Shown piece after piece: positions 291 through 51,690 of a DNA stretch of 64,000 nucleotides; within the stretch, counting starts at the first letter, position 1; the number at the start of each line of letters is the position of its first letter. This DNA is from Chryseobacterium rhizoplanae. GTDB taxonomy: Bacteria; Bacteroidota; Bacteroidia; Flavobacteriales; Weeksellaceae. Under the pieces are notes generated by a model that was given only the letters and a program-made list of their open reading frames with translations, ran no database searches and was not told the DNA's origin. The translations under genes were made by a program, and so were the position numbers. The stretch lies in assembly GCF_900182655.1 (NCBI RefSeq), contig NZ_FXTC01000001.1, forward strand, positions 744,001 through 808,000. Reading direction: 5' to 3'.

Positions 291-653
291 TTAAACATGA
301 TGTTTAGAAATCATTTTTTTCCATTTTGTAACTGTATTTCGGCTTAATCCAAAATGGTATGCCAATTGGCTGTTACTATATTTGTATTTCTTCTGATAAT
401 CAAGAATCTTTTGAATTGAAACGAGATCATAAGAACGAAGTCTCTGATTAAATTTTTCTATTTCTTTATCCTTCTTCTCAAAAATTATATTGTTGAGTTC
501 TATAATATCTATTTGGGATAAATCAGCTTTATTAAGCAGGGAAATACATTTTTCCTTTTTTTCCGGAAACTTAGTCTTGATTATATCAGTATAAATCTGT
601 TTATAATTTGGAGTAGTTTTTTTTGAAATCATAATTTGGATTTTATTTTTCAT
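291..653 (-). CDS. small HTH protein, second of a pair (transposase-like)
   Basis: The protein has 120 residues when started at the ATG at 651-653 (MKNKIQIMISKK). The start is preferred because it overlaps the stop of the upstream gene by only 11 bases, a coupled arrangement, whereas the longer frame would overlap by 74. The C-terminal third (SNSQLAYHFGLSRNTVTKWK) is a clear helix-turn-helix of the kind found in transposase OrfA and homeodomain-like proteins. No DDE catalytic domain is present. Together with the upstream gene it resembles a two-gene HTH cassette that I recall as common in Chryseobacterium and usually annotated as transposase or HTH protein. Whether it mobilises anything is not shown by the sequence. 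Confidence 0.6.
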   Translation of the reverse strand: MKNKIQIMISKKTTPNYKQIYTDIIKTKFPEKKEKCISLLNKADLSQIDIIELNNIIFEKKDKEIEKFNQRLRSYDLVSIQKILDYQKKYKYSNSQLAYHFGLSRNTVTKWKKMISKHHV

Positions 654-1077
654 TACTGGATTTATATTTATTAATCCATTTAAATAAAGTTGTTTTGGGA
701 ATTCTATACCTTTCAATTACGTGATTTCTTGTTATTTCTCCAGCCTCTATCTGCTCAATAATAAAATCTATTATTTCTTTGGTATAAATATTTTTCCGGA
801 ATTTTGGAAGGGAAGATTTTGTTGTTAATGTTTTTACTTTCCCTTTAGATGAGGGAGAATACAGAATCAAATGCTGGGAGTATATTCTAAAAAAATCATA
901 TTCCAAAAGCTTGCTCCACTTCAAAAGGATTTCGCAGTCCAAACTTTGGGCTTCGTACATTTTTTCAATTTCTCCTACCGAAAATTTGAAAAAGTTACAG
1001 ATACGAGATATATCTATCTCATTTTCTATAACTTTTTCTTTAATCATTTTCCCTATGTATATCTTTTTAAAATTCAT
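643..1077 (-). CDS. HTH protein, first of a pair (transposase-like)
   Basis: The protein has 144 residues. The N-terminal half (KMIKEKVIENEIDISRICNF, then EILLKWSKLLEYDFFRIYSQ) is typical of a Chryseobacterium/Elizabethkingia family in which a short HTH-like segment is followed by a conserved YDFFRIYSQHLILY stretch. The C-terminal part (ITRNHVIERYRIPKTTLFKW) is a second helix-turn-helix. It is translationally coupled to the downstream HTH gene and the pair ends at the terminator near 115-136. It probably binds DNA. A role in transposition is inferred from the family label only, since no nuclease domain or terminal inverted repeats are visible. Confidence 0.6.
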   Translation of the reverse strand: MNFKKIYIGKMIKEKVIENEIDISRICNFFKFSVGEIEKMYEAQSLDCEILLKWSKLLEYDFFRIYSQHLILYSPSSKGKVKTLTTKSSLPKFRKNIYTKEIIDFIIEQIEAGEITRNHVIERYRIPKTTLFKWINKYKSSNEK

Positions 1078-1369: not shown

Positions 1370-2167
1370 TTAAAAATGTTTTCTTACAGTTATACTGGAA
1401 ACAGTGGCTGTAGACAATGTACTTGAGTTATCTGCTCTCATTCTGTATTGGACCTGAATTTGGTCCCCGGCGGTTAAGTTACCCATCCAATACAATGGCA
1501 TATCTCCTTGTGCACCTCCTGCCCCTGTTCCATAATATGAAATAGCCAATACTGTAGAGGTTGTACTGTTAAAAATCCGGGCCCCAAATGCCTTAGAGTT
1601 ACCATTAGTACTTGATAATCGTAAAGAGACATCTCCAAAAAATGAGTACAGGCCCGTTGCTGGCACTGTAAATGTTCCACCACTATGAATATTTCCTATG
1701 TCCACACTTTCTGTTGTAAAATTCATTGTAGTCCAGGCTGAATAGTTAGGCATTGTATAGGTTGCAGCGACCACTGCCGGTTTTCCGGCAAATAAAACCT
1801 TGGTCAGATTATTATTGTTTATTTCTGTATGAACATCGGCGGTCTCTCCAATGCTTTCCCATTGGGTACCTGTCCAAATATAAAATGTATCCTGGAATAC
1901 ATTATTGGGAGAGGTACCACTGTTCAAAAGATTATATACCAAAGTGCCTTGTTCCGGCGAGTTTGTTGAGGATGTTACAGAAATTGTAGTGATATCATCA
2001 GTTCCCAGTAATTGGACTCTTGGAATTAGTAATCCTTTATTGGTACTATATACATCCAGTATTGTACTGGTATCAGGATTGTTTAATCCTATGCCTACCT
2101 GAGACTTTATCGATATGCTGCAAGAAATAAACAGCAGGTATAATATATAGATAATTTGTTTTTTCAT
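1370..2167 (-). CDS. secreted C1q/TNF-like protein, third of three
   Basis: The protein has 265 residues with a signal peptide (ILYLLFISCSISIKSQ). It then carries the flavobacterial head QVGIGLNNPDTSTILDVYST...LLIPRV, and after about residue 135 a beta-rich module (PATGLYSFFGDVSLRLS... to TVSSITVRKHF) with the pattern of C1q-like jelly-roll domains. Such proteins are secreted or surface-exposed in Flavobacteriia and their function is generally unknown. It follows its paralogue with 2 bases between genes, so the three genes form one operon. The C-terminal module has diverged more than the head, which would fit ligand or antigen variation. That last point is inference. Confidence 0.65.
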   Translation of the reverse strand: MKKQIIYILYLLFISCSISIKSQVGIGLNNPDTSTILDVYSTNKGLLIPRVQLLGTDDITTISVTSSTNSPEQGTLVYNLLNSGTSPNNVFQDTFYIWTGTQWESIGETADVHTEINNNNLTKVLFAGKPAVVAATYTMPNYSAWTTMNFTTESVDIGNIHSGGTFTVPATGLYSFFGDVSLRLSSTNGNSKAFGARIFNSTTSTVLAISYYGTGAGGAQGDMPLYWMGNLTAGDQIQVQYRMRADNSSTLSTATVSSITVRKHF

Positions 2168-2169
2168 AA

Positions 2170-2928
2170 TTACTGATATTTATAAATGTTGATTGTTCCG
2201 GATTCAATTCTATAGTTATTGGCGGTATAGATATATTTAAAAGTCATAAGATCATTTAAAATTAAGTTCTGGGTGCTGATTATGGTAGTGTACATCCTGT
2301 TGTTGATTAAGTTATCCCTTCCAAATGCACTGACAAGTGAAGTAGTCCCTTTTAATATATCATGAGTAGTAGTTCCTCCATTATTTCCTATATTTGACAT
2401 TTCGGTAATAAACTCAAGCATATATATTCCTGTAGAAGAGATTTTATACTGGCTTGTGCTACTGTTCCATCCGGCATACTTATCGACAAGAATTTCCGAA
2501 GGAGTAAGGGTAAGAGTGGTGAAAGCACCTCCTCCAGCTGATCCTATAGGGACAGTGGCTTTTTGACCAACAGCAGCACTGAATATTAACAAAGGAATAT
2601 TTGCAGCCGCAATAATATCATCAGTTGATGCTGTATTTGCCTGATGGTGATATTTATTATCACTTCCCCAATAGGTTATTCCTTTGATGATATCGCTGGC
2701 AGTGTTTGAATTTGTATTATAAAACATTACCCCTGTTGCCGGAGAGGCAATAGGGCTTGCTGCATCAGCATTATCTGTCACGGATAAGCTTGGAACCCTT
2801 AGGGCTTTATTATTTGAATCGAGTTTTAAAATGGCTGATTGTGAAACATTGGCTGATCCTATCACCATCTGGGCATTATTCATAATGGCCATTAATCCCA
2901 GAAATAAGATGAGAAGTTTTGATTTCAT
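2170..2928 (-). CDS. secreted C1q-like protein, second of three
   Basis: The protein has 252 residues with a hydrophobic signal peptide (LLILFLGLMAIMNNAQ). The head (SAILKLDSNNKALRVPSLSV...ASPATGVMFYNT) matches the repeated N-terminal module of the neighbouring genes. A beta-rich C-terminal domain (STGIYMLEFITEMSNIG... to INIYKYQ) follows and is consistent with a C1q/TNF fold. It lies 9 bases after the first gene and 2 before the third. No catalytic motif is visible. Secretion to the surface or medium is the main supported statement. Confidence 0.6.
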   Translation of the reverse strand: MKSKLLILFLGLMAIMNNAQMVIGSANVSQSAILKLDSNNKALRVPSLSVTDNADAASPIASPATGVMFYNTNSNTASDIIKGITYWGSDNKYHHQANTASTDDIIAAANIPLLIFSAAVGQKATVPIGSAGGGAFTTLTLTPSEILVDKYAGWNSSTSQYKISSTGIYMLEFITEMSNIGNNGGTTTHDILKGTTSLVSAFGRDNLINNRMYTTIISTQNLILNDLMTFKYIYTANNYRIESGTINIYKYQ

Positions 2929-2937
2929 AAGATTGAT

Positions 2938-3693
2938 TTAATTATTTGATATTTTGGAAATGGAAACATTAGGGTTGGTAATCTGATATGCGGCATTAGA
3001 AGACTGTACGCTGAATGTTATGAGGTCATTGGCTACCAGTTTTACACTGCAGGTACTTGATACACCTCCGAATTGATATCGTTTATCTGTTCCGTAGCTG
3101 CATATATTGACTCCGTTTTTTTGTACATAAACCATTGCCCCTCCATTCGTGTCTCCGGAGACATTTCTTAGATCCACATTAAAGGAAATTACATAGCCAC
3201 CAGCACTTTGAATTCTGTATCCAGTATAAGCAGGGCCTCCTTGTGCCCCTGCTGGAGAATTCTTGTATAAAGTATTAAAGGTGAGATTTGTGATTGTGCC
3301 GGCAGCAATACTACCTGAAGCAGCTATATTACTTGCCGCAAAAACAGGGGTTATAAATGGAATTTTTGCAACTTCAGTTTTTACCTCCTGTTTCGACCAC
3401 ATTTTTTCCCATACCGTTCCATTATAGGCATAAAGACCTTTGGTAACAGAAGTATTCCCTGTTCCGGCTGCAGCTGTGTTGTAAACAATAAATCCTGTTT
3501 TAGGATTGGCAACTGTTGTTATGTCTAGAGTAGAAGTGAGTGCAACGAGTGGAAGTTGAATCCCTTTATTGGCAGCAGTTATATCCAGAGCAGCGGATGG
3601 GTCCGGGTTTGTAGTCCCAATGCCAACTCCTCCTTGCTGTGCGCTAATACTGAGGCTATTAATAGCCAAGATTAAAATAAGTTTTTTTTTCAT
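2938..3693 (-). CDS. secreted C1q-like protein, first of three
   Basis: The protein has 251 residues from the ATG at 3691-3693 (MKKKLILILAINSLSISAQ, a clean signal peptide). The frame stays open upstream to 3738, but that would put 15 residues before the signal peptide. The N-terminal module GGVGIGTTNPDPSAALDI...GFIVYNTA is a hallmark of a large flavobacterial family of secreted proteins, and the C-terminal 120 residues are beta-rich and C1q-like. It is the first gene of a three-gene minus-strand operon. The recombinase switch at 4176-4403 lies upstream, but two leftward terminators lie between, so control by that switch is possible but unproven. Confidence 0.65.
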   Translation of the reverse strand: MKKKLILILAINSLSISAQQGGVGIGTTNPDPSAALDITAANKGIQLPLVALTSTLDITTVANPKTGFIVYNTAAAGTGNTSVTKGLYAYNGTVWEKMWSKQEVKTEVAKIPFITPVFAASNIAASGSIAAGTITNLTFNTLYKNSPAGAQGGPAYTGYRIQSAGGYVISFNVDLRNVSGDTNGGAMVYVQKNGVNICSYGTDKRYQFGGVSSTCSVKLVANDLITFSVQSSNAAYQITNPNVSISKISNN

Positions 3694-3751
3694 AATCCTA
3701 TTTTTATAAAAGATTGATTTTGTTACATAATGTGCCATTCACATATAAAAA

Positions 3752-3822
3752 TTAAGCCCCTTTCTTTCTCATCACCTGTGTAGTGTAATAGTGGCATATT
3801 TGAGGGAAACCAGAAGGGGCTT
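3752..3822 (-). terminator. large hairpin, possible leftward terminator or attenuator
   Basis: TTAAGCCCC at 3752-3760 pairs with GGGGCTTAA at 3816-3824. The stem extends to about 13 bp with one bulge (AAGCCCCTTTCT against AGAAGGGGCTT), and the loop is about 44 bases. Read leftward it is followed by AATTTTTA, so it could stop transcripts entering the C1q operon from the right. The long loop makes terminator strength uncertain. Confidence 0.45.
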
Positions 3823-3896
3823 AAATATTATAATTAAATCACTTTTTTTGGGAAATTTTATAAATTGTATGTTATTAATATGTTTTCATTATTTCT

Positions 3897-3937
3897 AAAA
3901 AATTGGCGGGCAAAAGCTGTAGAGCAACGCGCCCGCC
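3897..3937 (-). terminator. GC-rich leftward terminator
   Basis: GGCGGGC (3905-3911) pairs perfectly with GCCCGCC (3931-3937). On the minus strand the stem is followed directly by AATTTTTT (A-run at 3897-3902 on the plus strand). It lies 65 bases beyond the stop of the 52-codon minus-strand ORF at 4002-4160 and could end a short transcript from the invertible promoter. The 19-base loop is long for a terminator. Confidence 0.55.
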
Positions 3938-4001
3938 ACAGTAAAAACTTATAAATAATATTTATTAAGTGAATGAAGCGTGTTGGTAAGTGTGTATGTA
4001 T

Positions 4002-4160
4002 TTAGCTAATACTGTCCCAAATAAGCTTATAGTTTTTTTTCATCCAAATAAGATTTGGAATGGAGACATTCATTTCAGTTTGAGAAGACTCTATCGGGCA
4101 GAGTCGGGGATTTAATAATAAAAATTTTTCCATTTTTTTAGGTTGTTGTGTTAATTTCAT
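4002..4160 (-). CDS. candidate 52-residue protein beside the invertible promoter
   Basis: A leftward ATG at 4158-4160 opens a 52-codon frame (begins MKLTQQPKKMEKFLLLNPRL, ends NYKLIWDSIS, stop TAA at 4002-4004). It starts 15 bases to the left of the left inverted repeat. In the orientation seen here no leftward TAnnTTTG promoter serves it. If the 4176-4403 segment inverted, the mapped promoter would start transcription near 4198, about 38 bases before this ATG, and the terminator at 3897-3937 would follow. No family is recognised. Composition is basic with two Trp and one Cys. It has no signal peptide. It could be a small regulator or a leader peptide. Coding status is inferred from position. 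Confidence 0.4.
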   Translation of the reverse strand: MKLTQQPKKMEKFLLLNPRLCPIESSQTEMNVSIPNLIWMKKNYKLIWDSIS

Positions 4161-4175
4161 GTGTGTTTACATAAA

Positions 4176-4403
4176 GTAGTCCTGTTTAGACTTTTTTTTA
4201 TGATATATATCTGCATATTAGTTTATTAATAAATGAACAATTGTTGTAATTGAATTATGTTGGTTGTTTGTGATAATGTATAATTTTTAACAAAAAACAT
4301 TCTTAATCCAGTTAAAATATTAATACGCAAAAAGTTAATTTTGTTTGCCTAGTAAAATATTTATTATATATTTGTAAGTGAAAGGTAGTCTAAACAGGAC
4401 TAC
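4176..4403. repeat. 17-bp inverted repeats bounding a putative invertible promoter segment
   Basis: GTAGTCCTGTTTAGACT at 4176-4192 recurs as its exact reverse complement at 4387-4403, 194 bases apart. Each copy has the form of a tyrosine recombinase core site: AGTC and GACT arms around a 7-base spacer (CTGTTTA). In the right copy the arms extend to GGTAGTC and GACTACC. The enclosed segment holds one good Bacteroidota promoter (4344-4374), currently pointing right at the adjacent tyrosine recombinase gene. This arrangement matches known Bacteroides invertible promoters controlled by Mpi/Tsr-type recombinases. Inversion itself has not been shown. Confidence 0.6.
4344..4374 (+). promoter_or_regulatory. 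Bacteroidota promoter inside the inverted repeats
   Basis: TTTG at 4344-4347 (an overlapping alternative is at 4340-4343), a 19-base spacer and TATATTTG at 4367-4374 fit the TTTG-N19-TAnnTTTG consensus. Transcription would begin near 4381, so the mRNA would start with the GGTAGTC...GACTACC dyad and reach the recombinase ATG after about 67 bases. Confidence 0.65.
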
Positions 4404-4447
4404 CTTTTGATTTATATTAGCTGGAAATTAACCTAATATTTCTAGTA

Positions 4448-5704
4448 ATGACTTTTAAATTTTTCATTTCTGATCGTGGATTGGCAAAAGAATCTATTCA
4501 TTTAAAAATTGAAAATCAATCGGGTCAGCCGCTCTTCAATTTCAAAACTCCGCTGAGAATCTGCCAGGAAGATTGGGACAGTAAAAAACAACGTCCCAAT
4601 AATATTTACCTGAAGTGCTATAAAAAAATTAATACTAAGCTGGATGCTCTGAAAATACGGTTAGCAGAGTGTATTGAAGAAGATCAGTCTAAGGGAAAAC
4701 TTTCTTCACAAAGATATCTGTTCAAAGAAATAAAAAATCTCTGCAGTAAAGAGAAAGAGGATTATCCAAAAGATTCACTGCTTTGTTTTATCAATATGTA
4801 TATTTCCTCAAAACAAGAATACATTTGCCAGTCAACTTATAAAAGATATAAAGTATTTTTTAACTTTATTGAGAGGTTTGAAGGTTTTACAGCTAAGAGA
4901 CTGTACGTAAATAGTATGGATGGAGATTTTATCAGAAGATTTATTTCTTTTGGAAAGGAAGAGGCTTACAGTGAGAACACTATATACAGAACTATTCATT
5001 TTATTAAAACAATTCTAAACTTCGCTGAAAGAAAGGGTATAAGAACTGCTGTCAGGGAATTGGATATAAGACGGGAGAGGCAAAACAGAATCGTCATAAA
5101 TCTTACTGAAAAGGAAGTGATGAAAATAGAAAAGGTTAAAGTCCCAAGGGAGCTGCAGGCTGCCAAAGAGTGGCTTCTTATAAGTTGCTATACCGGTCAG
5201 AGAGTCTCAGATTTTATGAAATTTAATTCAGATCAAATGAAGAAAGTGAATGACCGGGTGTGTATTTCTTTCATCCAGCAAAAAACAAAAAAAGAGATCC
5301 TGCTGCCCATACATCCAGTTGTTTTAGAAATTATTAAACGGTATAAAAATAATTTCCCCCCAAAACTTTCCGCTACGAAATACAATAACCATATTAAACA
5401 AATTGGCCGGATTGCTCAGCTCAATGAGTCTGTAAATGCGGTAAAACGTGTAGGGCACAGGGTAAAAAAATTAATAGTTGAAAAATGGGAAGCACTCACC
5501 AGTCATATTGGGCGGAGAAGTTTTGCAACCAACTTTTATGGGAAAATTCCCACTCCTTTACTAATGCAGGCAACCGGACATACTACAGAGCAGATGTTTA
5601 TGAAATATATTAATCCTGTTGATGAAAGCCATACTATCAGTTTGGGTAACTATTTTGACAAAACATATAAGGAAAGTTATTTTGGAGGCATGGCCGCCAG
5701 TTAA
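4448..5704 (+). CDS. tyrosine recombinase (phage-integrase family)
   Basis: The protein has 418 residues with the Bacteroidota layout: an arm-binding N-terminal domain (SIHLKIENQSGQPLFNFKTP...CQEDWD), a SAM-like core-binding domain (about 105-205) and a catalytic domain (about 215-400). Catalytic residues are visible: Arg in YTGQRVSD, Lys in QQKTKKE, HxxR in SHIGRRSF, the second His in ATGHTT and the nucleophile Tyr in MFMKYI. It cuts and rejoins DNA at short dyad sites. The perfect inverted repeats directly upstream suggest it acts as a DNA invertase on its own promoter segment. Integration of the ICE is the alternative role, since Bacteroidota ICEs often carry such a gene at one end. Confidence 0.85.
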   Translation: MTFKFFISDRGLAKESIHLKIENQSGQPLFNFKTPLRICQEDWDSKKQRPNNIYLKCYKKINTKLDALKIRLAECIEEDQSKGKLSSQRYLFKEIKNLCSKEKEDYPKDSLLCFINMYISSKQEYICQSTYKRYKVFFNFIERFEGFTAKRLYVNSMDGDFIRRFISFGKEEAYSENTIYRTIHFIKTILNFAERKGIRTAVRELDIRRERQNRIVINLTEKEVMKIEKVKVPRELQAAKEWLLISCYTGQRVSDFMKFNSDQMKKVNDRVCISFIQQKTKKEILLPIHPVVLEIIKRYKNNFPPKLSATKYNNHIKQIGRIAQLNESVNAVKRVGHRVKKLIVEKWEALTSHIGRRSFATNFYGKIPTPLLMQATGHTTEQMFMKYINPVDESHTISLGNYFDKTYKESYFGGMAAS

Positions 5705-27114: not shown

Positions 27115-27139
27115 AATAAAAAAATATTTGATTTGCTGC

Positions 27140-28660
27140 CTACTCTGAAACACGGTTTTCGGCTTCCCCGTTTTTAAAATGTTTTTTCAGGGGCTGGGTA
27201 AGTTTATATTTTACCAGCTGATTTCCAACAATTGCGTACAAATGCTCATCGGTGACTCTAAAATCTGACATGGTATTATTTTTAATATTGTCGATGTACA
27301 TGCTGCCAATATATTCCTGAGATTCGGTATTATAGATGTCAATAACTTTGCTTTCCTTCCATCTGCTTAAAGATTCATGTCTTCCTCTTAATTGAGCAGG
27401 GTTAAATAACAGACCTCTGTATACGATCGCATGCCCGTTAACTTTTAGTGCAGGTTTAGACATTTTAGATTTTCCATTGGATAGCGATGTTACTTTAATC
27501 TGTGCGATTTTAGTCGTATCAATAGTTCTCCATCTGTGAATAAGCTGCATTGAATGGTTCATGACAAGAAACTGGTTTCTATAACTGTAGATATAGTTGA
27601 CAGTCGGTCTTATAGGATCAGATGAAAGATAGCCGTCGGAATCAAAAAAACCATCCAACTGCTTTTCAAGTAAATCAGGATGCAGTGTCACCTGATTTTT
27701 GCCATTGTGATTGATTAAAATAGTTCCCAGCGTTAAATTCCTGGTTTGAGATGAGAGGGTGCGAATGGCAATTTTATTACTGTCAATAATTTCAAGCTGG
27801 CTAAAGAATGCATCGTTAAAACTGATTACTTTGTTTTTTGCATCACCTAATTTGCCTTTTAATATGATGGGTACATTTCCATCATAGATATAAAAATGGT
27901 GATCTTTAACTTTAATCTCTATTTTTTTAAATGGATATTTGCTGAGTTCCAGATCAATCTTTGTATTTACAGCTTTTTTTAAAAGTGAATCAACTGCTAA
28001 TAAATTTTGAGGGAGGCTTCGGTTAGCTAAGTAAAGCTCTTCATTTTTAGCACCAGCAAAATAAAATGAATGGTTCTCCAGATCCATACTTTTTACTTTT
28101 AAAATAGGATGCATCAGAAACCTTCTTGTAAAATTGTTTTCCTGTTTTATAATGTATTCTGACTTAAAAAACAAAACAATGACAAGAATACAACTCAAAA
28201 TATTGGAAATTCCTAAGATCAATGCCGTTTTACGGTGAGTCTTATGATTTGCTCTTCCGATGATAAGAACAGATAGACCTCCTATAACTACACAAAGAAT
28301 ATTAAAAATCAGATGTTCAGTCCATCCCATTTTTTCCAAGATTCCTCCACATGAACAAGGAACAAAGTCACTGTAATTTAGAATGAGAAATATATAGATC
28401 GTAAATGCTGACATTAAGGCAGTTGATAAGTATAATCCGATTAATCTACTGCTTGGAAAAATCAATAACAGTACAATAATTAATTCTACAATAATAACAG
28501 CATAAGAAATAATACCTGCATATGCGCTAAGTAATGGCGACTGTGCAATCTGAACTTGAAAGTTTTCAAAATCAAGCAATTTGCTCACACTTGCATACAC
28601 AAACAACAGAATAAAAAAGCAGGAAACAGTTTTGATAAAGATAGCTTGTACGTTTTTCAT
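27140..28660 (-). CDS. MauE/DoxX-type membrane protein with large periplasmic domain
   Basis: The protein has 506 residues. Four or five transmembrane helices fill residues 1-170 (FILLFVYASVSKLLDFENFQ, IISYAVIIVELIIVLLLIF, AFTIYIFLILNY, LIFNILCVVIGGLSVLIIG, SNILSCILVIVLFF). The conserved VPCSCGG motif at about 100-106 supplies the two Cys typical of MauE redox proteins. The remaining 330 residues are soluble and beta-rich with no recognised catalytic motif. MauE proteins support disulfide formation in exported proteins. The operon also makes a small lipoprotein, a Cys-containing peptide and a Cys-rich DUF6520 protein, which fits oxidative maturation of small exported products. Confidence 0.75.
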   Translation of the reverse strand: MKNVQAIFIKTVSCFFILLFVYASVSKLLDFENFQVQIAQSPLLSAYAGIISYAVIIVELIIVLLLIFPSSRLIGLYLSTALMSAFTIYIFLILNYSDFVPCSCGGILEKMGWTEHLIFNILCVVIGGLSVLIIGRANHKTHRKTALILGISNILSCILVIVLFFKSEYIIKQENNFTRRFLMHPILKVKSMDLENHSFYFAGAKNEELYLANRSLPQNLLAVDSLLKKAVNTKIDLELSKYPFKKIEIKVKDHHFYIYDGNVPIILKGKLGDAKNKVISFNDAFFSQLEIIDSNKIAIRTLSSQTRNLTLGTILINHNGKNQVTLHPDLLEKQLDGFFDSDGYLSSDPIRPTVNYIYSYRNQFLVMNHSMQLIHRWRTIDTTKIAQIKVTSLSNGKSKMSKPALKVNGHAIVYRGLLFNPAQLRGRHESLSRWKESKVIDIYNTESQEYIGSMYIDNIKNNTMSDFRVTDEHLYAIVGNQLVKYKLTQPLKKHFKNGEAENRVSE

Positions 28661-38299: not shown

Positions 38300-39274
38300 C
38301 TAAGATCTGTTATCAAACAATTCATGCAGTTTTTTCTGCAGAACCTTTTTGTCGGGAAGCTGCATTTTGTATTCAGAAACCATTGTCGGAGAAAGACTTC
38401 TACTCAGCGCATATTCTACTACTTCGCTGTCTTTGTCTTTACAAAGCAGTACGCCGATGCTTGGATTTTCGTTCTGACGTTTAACATCCCTGTCCAGCGC
38501 TTCCAGATAAAAGTTAAGTTGACCCAGATGTTCGGGTTTGAATTTATCTGCTTTCAGTTCGAAAGCGACAAGGCATTGCAGCCCCCTGTGGAAGAATAAG
38601 AGATCGATATAAAAATCAGAATTTCCGACCTGTACTTTGTACTCTTCGCTGATAAAAAGAAAATCCCGTCCTAACTCCAGGATAAAATTTTTCATCTGCT
38701 CAATTAAACCTTTTTGGAGATCATTTTCATTGAATGTTTCAGGCAGATTTAAAAAGTCAAATACATAGCTGTCTTTAAATGTATTGACTATATCAGCGTT
38801 AGTTTCTCTCAACACTGTTGAGAGTTTTGAATTTCCAATCATTGTTCTTTCAAAAAGGCTGCTGGATATCTGTCTCTCTAACTCCCGGAAGCTATAATTT
38901 TCCTGTTTGGTCAACTTGATATAAAATTCCCTTTCTTCGATTGATTTACATCTGGAGAATATGGACAGATTATGAGACCAGCTGATTTCTCTCAACAGTG
39001 TTGAGATTTTGGGAAATTCCTTGTAAGTCTCATAAAACTGCTTCATTCTCCAAAGATTCTTATCCGAAAAACCTTTTAGTTCAGGTTCATGAGTCTGGAT
39101 AAACTGAGAAAGTTCTTTAACCACAGATTGTCCCCATTCACTCAGCTCTACCTTTTTGCTGATATACTCACCAATATTCCAGTATAGATCGATGAGTTCC
39201 TCATTGACTTTTCTTATCGCATTGTTACGAGACTGTTTGATGAGCTCAATAATATCTGTGAACCTTTTATCCAT
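38300..39274 (-). CDS. DUF1016 (YhcG-type) PDDEXK nuclease
   Basis: The protein has 324 residues. The DUF1016 N-terminal domain (ARNNAIRKVNEELIDLYWNI, then GFSDKNLWRMKQFYETY) is followed by a PD-(D/E)XK nuclease core (QVGNSDFYIDLLFFHRGLQC LVAFELKADKFKPEHLGQLN), with D in FYIDLLFF and ExK in FELKA as metal ligands. Such proteins have been linked to Holliday-junction processing and defence islands. It is transcribed against the tra genes, between traD and traE. A minus-strand -7 element (TAAATTTG, 39300-39307) gives a 19-base leader, so it is an independent unit and probable cargo. Confidence 0.85.
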   Translation of the reverse strand: MDKRFTDIIELIKQSRNNAIRKVNEELIDLYWNIGEYISKKVELSEWGQSVVKELSQFIQTHEPELKGFSDKNLWRMKQFYETYKEFPKISTLLREISWSHNLSIFSRCKSIEEREFYIKLTKQENYSFRELERQISSSLFERTMIGNSKLSTVLRETNADIVNTFKDSYVFDFLNLPETFNENDLQKGLIEQMKNFILELGRDFLFISEEYKVQVGNSDFYIDLLFFHRGLQCLVAFELKADKFKPEHLGQLNFYLEALDRDVKRQNENPSIGVLLCKDKDSEVVEYALSRSLSPTMVSEYKMQLPDKKVLQKKLHELFDNRS

Positions 39275-49988: not shown

Positions 49989-50084
49989 CTTCTTTAATAA
50001 ATCTTGTTTTTACTATTAAGTTGATTACAAACCTTGTAAATACTTTTTCGATATCTTTAGGTGAAAATTTTTAAACTAATTATT

Positions 50085-51656
50085 ATGAGTAATGTTGCTT
50101 TATATATTCGTGTATCAACTGATGAGCAGGCAGATAGAGGTTACTCTCAACGTGATCAGGAAGAACGCTTAAAAAGGTATTGCGAAACTAATAATCTTAA
50201 AATTGATAATGTTTTTTTTGAAGATCATTCAGCAAAAAATTTTAATCGTCCGTCATGGAATGATCTTTTAATTTATCTAAAGAAAAAAAAATCTAAAATT
50301 GATAAAGTCTTATTTACTAAATGGGACCGTTTTAGCAGGAATGCAGGTGATGCATATCAAATGATAAGTATCCTTAAGAAACTGGGAGTAGAAGCCCAGG
50401 CTATAGAACAGCCATTGGATCTTTTCATACCAGAAAATAAAATGATGTTAGCAATTTATCTTGCTGCACCAGAGGTAGAGAATGACAGACGAGCATTGAA
50501 TACATTTCATGGGATGCGAAGAGCTCAAAAGGAAGGAAGGTGGATGGCTAGCGCTCCTTTCGGATACACAAATAAAATTACAGAAGATGGCAAATATAAG
50601 TTTATAGAGCCTAAAGAACCCGAAGCTTCAATAATACGCTATTTCTTTAATGAAATAGCAAAAGGAATTGAAGCTCCTGAAACTATACGTCGACAGCTTT
50701 CAGAAAAAGGAGTAAAGATTTTGAGTAATCAAGCCTTTCATGTTGCGATAAGAAATCCAGTGTATTGTGGTAAAATATTTATAAAGAAATACCGGGATGA
50801 AGAAGCTCACTATGTAAAATCTTTACATGCTCCTCTTATAAGTGAGACACTATTTAATAAAGTTCAGTTAATTTTAGAAGGCAATAAAAGGAAAAACCGA
50901 AAGTATATAAAATTTAGTTCTGCTGACGTTTTTCCATTAAGAGGTTTTTTGATTTGTCCAAAATGTGGAAAAAATTTAACTGCCAGCGGTTCAAAAGGAA
51001 GTCAGAGAGTATATTATTACTATCATTGTAAATCATCTTGTGGATTTAGGCAAAGTGCTGAACTTACCAATAATCTTTTTGTTGAGGAATTAAAGAAATA
51101 TGAGTTTCTTCCTTCAGTTCAAAAAATCTTACAAAATATTCTACTAACAGCCTATAAAAAGTATAATAACAAAGCTGATGATAGAAGAAAAAGAATAATT
51201 TCTGAAATAGAGACTTATAATGCTAAGATAGCTCTTGCACGAGAAAAATTATTAGCGGAAAAGATTGAGGATGACGATTATATGATCATTAAAGCACAGT
51301 CTAAACAAAAAATTGAAATTCTTGAAAATGAACTTCATGCTTGTTTAGTTGCGACTCGTAATCCCAAAAAAGTTGATGATCGCTTAAACAAGGCTCTATC
51401 AGTTATATCTAACTTATCATTATTATACCAATCAAGTAGTGTAGAAGCAAAAAGAAAAATAATTAGTTCGATATATCCAGAAAATCTTGAATTTACAGGA
51501 ATTGAATATCGAACTACCAGAGTAAATTCAGTATTAAGAAGTATATCTCTTGTAACCAATGCGTTAGGTGATGCAAATAATAAAAAAAATGATAAGAAAA
51601 CAGCTTATCCCTGTCTGGTAGCCCCACCAGGGATCGAACCTGGATCTAAAGTTTAG
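50085..51656 (+). CDS. large serine recombinase, C-terminus running into tRNA-Arg
   Basis: The protein has 523 residues from the ATG at 50085 (MSNVALYIRVSTDEQADRGY); a GTG at 50061 is less likely. The resolvase domain has the nucleophile Ser11 (YIRVSTDEQ) and the KWDRFSRNAGDAY motif. A recombinase domain follows (APFGYTNK...GIEAPETIRRQLSEKGVKIL...YCGKIFIKKY), then a zinc ribbon (CPKCGKNLTASGSKG...CKSSCGF) and a coiled coil (ISEIETYNAKIALAREKLLA EKI). The last about 25 codons (NDKKTAYPCLVAPPGIEPGS) are antisense to the terminator and 3' half of tRNA-Arg, so the natural C-terminus was probably replaced on integration. It is the best candidate for the integrase of this end. Confidence 0.85.
   Translation: MSNVALYIRVSTDEQADRGYSQRDQEERLKRYCETNNLKIDNVFFEDHSAKNFNRPSWNDLLIYLKKKKSKIDKVLFTKWDRFSRNAGDAYQMISILKKLGVEAQAIEQPLDLFIPENKMMLAIYLAAPEVENDRRALNTFHGMRRAQKEGRWMASAPFGYTNKITEDGKYKFIEPKEPEASIIRYFFNEIAKGIEAPETIRRQLSEKGVKILSNQAFHVAIRNPVYCGKIFIKKYRDEEAHYVKSLHAPLISETLFNKVQLILEGNKRKNRKYIKFSSADVFPLRGFLICPKCGKNLTASGSKGSQRVYYYYHCKSSCGFRQSAELTNNLFVEELKKYEFLPSVQKILQNILLTAYKKYNNKADDRRKRIISEIETYNAKIALAREKLLAEKIEDDDYMIIKAQSKQKIEILENELHACLVATRNPKKVDDRLNKALSVISNLSLLYQSSSVEAKRKIISSIYPENLEFTGIEYRTTRVNSVLRSISLVTNALGDANNKKNDKKTAYPCLVAPPGIEPGSKV
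51583..51609 (-). terminator. terminator of tRNA-Arg
   Basis: Read leftward: GATAAG-CTGTTTT-CTTATC followed by ATTTTTTTTATTA, 7 bases downstream of the tRNA CCA end. A standard tRNA terminator. It lies inside the 3' end of the serine recombinase frame. Confidence 0.75.
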
Positions 51657-51690
51657 GAAACTTTTATTCTATCCATTGAACTATGAGGCC
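51616..51690 (-). tRNA. tRNA-Arg(CCU)
   Basis: On the minus strand GGCCTCA...TGGGGCT-A-CCA closes the acceptor stem (two G-U pairs), with D stem GTTC/GAAT, anticodon arm AAAGT-TTCCTAA-ACTTT (anticodon CCT) and T arm CCAGG-TTCGATC-CCTGG. The CCA is encoded. The 3' end faces the serine recombinase, so the mobile region lies at the usual tRNA 3'-side integration position. No second copy of the 3' end was found in the window. Confidence 0.93.

Follow-up and report, generated by a model that had tools for sequence, protein, structure and literature searches.

A putative promoter-inversion switch with its own tyrosine recombinase in Chryseobacterium rhizoplanae and related bacteria

The locus appears to be a self-encoded promoter-inversion switch, in which a recombinase and a leftward operon would alternate on one promoter. 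We give this reading a probability of about 0.86 on the sequence evidence. The same layout recurs in dozens of related bacteria. The locus lies in a 64,000-nt stretch of the Chryseobacterium rhizoplanae genome, the whole of which is called the window here, and its features are given in Table 1. The tyrosine recombinase (4448-5704) would act on two inverted TAGTC-N7-GACTA sites about 208 nt apart, the nearer of them lying some 60 nt ahead of the recombinase gene. It would turn round the segment between the sites, which holds one outward promoter. In the present state the promoter would serve the recombinase; in the other state it would serve the divergent leftward operon, which encodes mostly secreted proteins. 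Recombinase action would remove the enzyme's own promoter, end its synthesis and link the promoter to the leftward side. The recombinase and the leftward operon would be read alternately.

The first-pass annotation had proposed a two-state promoter switch with its own recombinase. This proposal is supported by the covariation of the site cores, the fixed position of the promoter and the reversed copies in relatives. It also fits the scarcity of leftward promoter elements (1 against 11.4 expected). Sequence comparison reveals the sites with their matched cores, the divergent arrangement, and relatives in which the segment is naturally reversed. From these we infer that this recombinase performs the inversion and that transcription alternates.

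Table 1. Features of the candidate switch and its leftward operon, in window coordinates
Feature	Coordinates	Strand	Remarks
HTH-like protein B, PDYKKIY family	291..716	-	
HTH-like protein A, FKxIHIGxLI family	643..1077	-	predicted all-helical, N-terminal part XRE-like
Related secreted protein 3	1370..2167	-	
Related secreted protein 2	2170..2928	-	
C1q/TNF-fold secreted protein 1	2938..3738	-	likely start 3693
Structured leader of C1q-like operon	3737..3839	-	AAGCCCC...TGATGAGAAAG...GGGGCTT, conserved
GC-rich hairpin and U-run, leftward terminator-like	3897..3937	-	-20.5 kcal/mol
52-codon ORF	4002..4160	-	15 nt outside left repeat
Left recombination site	4176..4192	+	TAGTC 4177-4181, core CTGTTTA 4182-4188, GACT 4189-4192
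Invertible segment	4193..4386	.	194 bp separating the arms
Promoter facing the recombinase	4344..4374	+	TTTG 4344-4347, TATATTTG 4367-4374
Right recombination site	4387..4403	-	inverted copy, core identical to left site
Tyrosine recombinase, 418 aa	4448..5704	+	Phage_integrase E 5.5e-11, SAM-like domain E 2.8e-9

The two repeat copies are complementary at 17 of 17 bases. Both contain TAGTC-CTGTTTA-GACT with its 7-nt core. The perfect pair with a 7-base spacer, described earlier at these coordinates and this distance, was confirmed. Of 30 Markov resamples of the window, one produced a perfect 17-bp inverted repeat with arms 50 to 400 nt apart; none of the others exceeded 15 bp. The window also contains a second perfect inverted repeat, of 18 bp, at 38807/38989. 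For these reasons the repeat alone is weak evidence for a switch. It is not decisive by itself, and the case for the putative switch is carried by its conservation among relatives. A scan of the 5.18-Mb genome, allowing up to one arm mismatch or three in the 17-mer, found a single site pair; among the places listed at these thresholds there was no second inverted pair. The 18-bp repeat (38807-39006, 164 bp between the arms, near-palindrome CTCAACANTGTTGAG) lies inside a DUF1016/YhcG nuclease gene (38300-39274).

The recombinase contains R252, K279, H353, R356, H378 and Y387, which are invariant in all 63 aligned sequences, the window's included. The catalytic set of tyrosine recombinases is R-K-H-R-H-Y. 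That set is complete here and the protein matches Pfam Phage_integrase, placing it among the tyrosine recombinases. It had been called Mpi/Tsr-type. The assignment to the tyrosine recombinases stands; the likeness to Mpi does not, as Mpi is a serine recombinase and here the genome holds one site pair. A single-sequence search found no solved structural relatives at E 0.01. A phage or plasmid origin was considered and rejected: among the matches listed (8 of 43 from phages, 8 of 11 from plasmids) all were below 30% identity. No relative was confirmed in viral contigs.

Relatives were collected at three levels. The genus search covered 173 genomes, 130 of which gave some recombinase match at E 0.001. 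The family search covered 320 genomes, with matches at E 1e-90 in 47 genomes from 6 of 33 genera. The order sample contained 395 genomes, and the 16 with matches at E 1e-70 were all from this family. We took 73 loci, window included, with recombinase identity of about 46% or more. Five whose recombinase was truncated and another located at a contig edge were removed, leaving 67 usable loci. The loci are related to one another, so the counts are not independent. Sites were chosen by the arms TAGTC and GACTA alone, blind to the core.

Paired TAGTC-N7-GACTA sites were present in 62 of the 67 usable loci, window included. The 7-nt core was equal in both copies at 61 of 62 loci; the exception, L116, differs by one base. 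There were 39 distinct cores, and random pairing gave a mean of 2.5 matches and a maximum of 10 in 10,000 shuffles. Core identity was 98 to 100% within loci and 30 to 67% between loci for six of the seven bases. The sites were 158 to 229 nt apart (median 208, 62 loci), and the right site was 51 to 74 nt upstream of the recombinase start as aligned. Arms shared across loci, with a core that agrees only between the two sites of one locus, are what a tyrosine recombinase needs for strand exchange. The observed pattern fits strand exchange, and repression does not need such a match. Seven recombinases of 31 to 38% identity (L118 to L124) had no inverted repeat of at least 13 bp near their start, so the site pair seems to belong to this recombinase subfamily.

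Two further patterns were examined in the sites. Spacing peaked at 203 to 212 and at 216 to 220 nt, but a claim of helical phasing was dropped because the loci are related. Cores were equal in 1 of 30 same-genome pairs against 0.76 expected, which gives no evidence of selection for different cores within one genome. Genome G153, a single contig, contains two switch copies (L069 and L070) separated by about 4.3 Mb in its coordinates; their cores are identical, so recombination between the copies is conceivable. In another genome (G215, loci L138 and L139), two contigs end in the same 1,060 nt at 99% identity. The shared end lies inside a truncated recombinase copy, as if the assembly had broken at a repeated locus.

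The promoter inside the window's invertible segment is of the Bacteroidota type. It aims at the recombinase ATG (position 4448), in agreement with the full promoter reported earlier inside the segment, and both of its elements were confirmed (Table 1). The consensus of 57 loci aligned on the -7 element is TTTG...TATATTTG, so the upstream TTTG is shared too. The TAnnTTTG element was 26 or 29 to 33 nt from the crossover end in 57 of 62 loci. It was absent from the expected position in the other five (L080, L086, L132, L136 and L143).

Both orientations of the promoter are present among related loci. In 55 of 62 loci it points toward the recombinase, and in 2 (L077 and L128) it points away at the mirrored distance. 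A decayed locus, L127, has a third promoter facing away, at 31 nt, as a mirror image. L127 looks locked: its two cores do not match and its segment has become shorter. Aligned to L076 and L078, the L077 segment scores higher when reversed (63 and 59 against 24 and 29), and in the tree L077 groups with three recombinase-facing loci. The three reversed loci require at least two changes of state on the tree. The comparison of orientation among relatives, suggested by the first-pass annotation as a check, thus yielded reversed copies. The 55:2 imbalance is the main point for which a simple reversible switch does not account. The recombinase-facing state dominates the sequenced loci, although strong expression should make it the less stable of the two.

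The leftward side has few promoters of its own. No leftward TAnnTTTG is present in the window at 3694-4175, as had been noted before. Across 61 loci we counted the stretch from the left site to the first leftward ORF of at least 85 codons (15,384 nt). It contained one leftward TAnnTTTG against a shuffle mean of 11.4. None of 200 shuffles was as low, and the rightward control was 11. The first leftward ATG was less than 100 nt from the site in 29 of 61 loci, which leaves little room for another promoter. The first leftward genes are varied among loci. By a crude test, 48 of 61 have a hydrophobic N-terminus and 13 fail. Many start with a signal-peptide-like stretch and QVGINTxxPxATLDV.

The window's leftward operon encodes three related secreted proteins. 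Their description as C1q-like had no backing from Pfam, which matched none of the three at E 1e-3, but agrees with the structure predicted for one of them. The product of 2941-3693 has a predicted fold (mean pLDDT 72.8) with a best Foldseek match of E 2.5e-7 to a TNF-family ligand and matches to C1q domains from 1.7e-5. The leader in front of them matches no Rfam family at the gathering threshold. It was considered as a repeated genomic motif and rejected, because the genome contains a single copy when up to one mismatch is allowed. Similar elements are present in L072 and L087.

Two HTH-like proteins, A and B, are encoded beyond the C1q-like genes. The best Foldseek match of protein A has E 0.17, which is suggestive of an XRE-like fold. 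A or B is encoded within 6 kb leftward in 40 of 62 loci, counted over the loci with at least 4 kb of leftward sequence (a different set from the 62 paired-site loci). All copies found there, at any distance, point leftward. This genome has about five places with protein A. Of the four others that we read, one adjoins similar VGINT-type proteins (L156), one adjoins another putative secreted protein (L158), one adjoins unrelated genes (L157), and one is a broken copy a few kb from a VGINT-type gene (L159). No inverted switch-site pair was found at these four. A and B thus accompany operons of this kind in part, and not only the switch.

It is nearly an even bet that the switch does not control the C1q-like operon, which would have its own structured leader and a promoter that we do not recognise. 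The only controlled unit, the first gene, would then be dead in this strain. This alternative is compatible with a switch. A terminator-like conserved hairpin sits between the promoter's leftward exit and the operon in the window, and such a hairpin and the leader precede the operon in six loci (window and L068 to L072). The lack of a leftward TAnnTTTG upstream of the operon and the A and B genes beyond it, so often within 6 kb leftward of the recombinase, weigh on the other side. If the operon does belong to the switch, it would be reached by readthrough. With the first leftward gene probably reduced to the 52-codon ORF in this strain, the present target would be a leader RNA or a readthrough product. 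The odds are about even between a short leader RNA that ends at 3897-3937 and readthrough to the C1q-like operon together with A and B.

The 52-codon ORF is present where it was first described, 15 bases outside the repeat, and the GC-rich element beyond it was confirmed as a terminator-like hairpin. Its U-run is 3' of the hairpin on the leftward strand. The hairpin shows pair-preserving changes in L069 (by eye), and L072 has a like hairpin in the same place (-16.6 kcal/mol). The further claim that this ORF is the target of the switch is not supported, as the ORF is not conserved as a gene. Its start or frame is lost in three of four close relatives. In L069 and L070 the ATG is TTG and the C-terminal half has shifted to a different frame; L069, L070 and L071 all have indels between the outer and the inner ATG (4133). 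The inner ATG is kept in all five close loci, window included, and the stretch around it is well conserved. The ORF is more likely read from this inner ATG, as 43 codons.

In L072, whose recombinase has 68 to 69% identity, an intact 234-aa secreted protein starts 25 nt outside the repeat arm. It is followed by the hairpin, the leader element and three C1q-like genes. The N-terminus of this first gene resembles the short products of the relatives, with Smith-Waterman scores of 43 to 49, not reached in any of 500 shuffles. For the short product of the window the score was 32 (1 of 500 shuffles). A profile of 54 first-gene N-termini was matched as highly by 0, 1 and 0 of 500 shuffles for L069, L070 and L071. 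For the window the number was 25 of 500 with the short ORF and 16 of 500 with the 52-codon form, and the profile therefore gives the window's own copy no support. The 52-codon ORF probably represents the eroded beginning of the first gene in the operon, which encodes a secreted protein and is intact in L072. This "remnant" interpretation rests on position and on the relatives more than on the window's own sequence. It is unlikely that the ORF instead yields a functional small protein that the switch is built to control. Such a protein would account for the conserved stretch around the inner ATG and for an ORF that begins near the first-gene starts of many relatives, but not for the lost starts, the indels, the shifted frames or the resemblance to the L072 gene.

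The standard site pair is missing from five of the 67 usable loci (L094, L126, L127, L144 and L145), which indicates that the switch decays. By eye, L126 has one site and its segment is gone, L144 and L145 have lost the left site and kept the right one, and L094 has the right site only. In the window, the right site copy forms a 12-pair RNA hairpin of -15.8 kcal/mol in a fold calculation. This hairpin would lie close to where the recombinase mRNA is predicted to begin. Among the 62 loci, 37 have a T-run of at least 5 outside the right site and 3 have one outside the left site.

The sites could also be operators for autorepression of the recombinase, with inversion rare or lost and the locus fixed facing the recombinase. 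The 55 of 62 loci in this orientation, the right site without a left one in L144 and L145, and the position of the right site at the likely transcript start all agree with this explanation. We nevertheless consider it quite improbable. Cores match within 61 of 62 loci yet differ between loci, which is needed for strand exchange and not for repression, and reversed promoter copies exist in relatives.

A conjugative element lies to the right of the switch at 6892-51690. It encodes TraG, TraM, TraJ, a coupling protein and a relaxase. Another of its products belongs to DUF3945/DUF4099 and carries a topoisomerase C-terminal repeat. An ORF for a large serine recombinase (50061-51656) overlaps tRNA-Arg (51616-51690). 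No clear direct repeat was found at the presumed ends of the element, whose longest common word was 11 nt. With those transfer genes to the right, and with L068 and L069 collinear with the window over the first 3 kb beyond the recombinase, the recombinase might be taken for the element's integrase and the repeats for attachment or regulatory sites, but this is very improbable: L070, L071 and L072 retain the recombinase, the sites and the leftward side but lack this right flank (L071 has one 101-nt match), the large serine recombinase sits at the element's far end, the listed plasmid and phage matches fall below 30% identity, and two identical inverted cores around a promoter do not fit an attachment site. 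Over the first 3 kb compared, the recombinase does not travel with the transfer genes. A Gabija anti-phage pair (15035-18945) sits between the switch and the transfer genes. It contains GajA (PADLOC E 1.9e-287) with GajB directly next to it (E 1.5e-232). The Rfam DUF805b RNA (RF02914) is present on the minus strand at 27137-27172, at the 3' edge of a 506-aa ORF.

Within the promoter-inversion reading, the right-site hairpin and the T-run could keep recombinase expression low. Low expression would help explain why the recombinase-facing state is usually the one sequenced. A tentative extension, which we hold to be somewhat doubtful, is a self-extinguishing latch. The flip would silence the recombinase, because the recombinase uses the promoter that it inverts, and would lock the secreted-protein state until leak expression resets it. 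The hairpin and T-run would serve as a brake, and A and B would hold or reset the state. All of the steps after inversion are conjectural.

MrpI of Proteus mirabilis is a tyrosine recombinase. As in the MR/P fimbrial switch, the recombinase here would flip an element that holds the promoter of a surface operon (PMC7444556). MrpI is reported there to be encoded independently by a second transcript; here the only promoter seen for the recombinase, judged by sequence, lies in the invertible segment. The putative switch resembles the gut Bacteroidales invertons in its inverted repeats around a Bacteroidota promoter, its nearby tyrosine recombinase and its surface-product targets (PMC11892184). The invertases of those invertons are reported to be generally "non-regulatable" by the inverton promoter, with group 145 as a possible exception. 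Here, by contrast, the promoter faces the recombinase in 55 of 62 loci, and this orientation is the rule. Mpi of Bacteroides fragilis, described as a serine recombinase with several target promoters (PMC8375218), is similar in that Bacteroidota promoters for surface products are inverted. It is unlike this locus, which has a tyrosine recombinase and a single site pair found in the genome. An inversion signature is reported for one Flavobacteriia sample in PMC5903667. In a partial literature collection, we found no paper that pairs an invertible promoter with Chryseobacterium, or with flavobacteria and a tyrosine recombinase.

If the proposed switch is real, Chryseobacterium and its relatives would contain a natural negative-feedback inversion switch. 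The dependence of the recombinase on the promoter that it inverts would lead to a clear and measurable prediction about bistability. The 39 natural cores, found with one conserved arm motif, offer ready material for studying how arms and cores are recognised by tyrosine recombinases.
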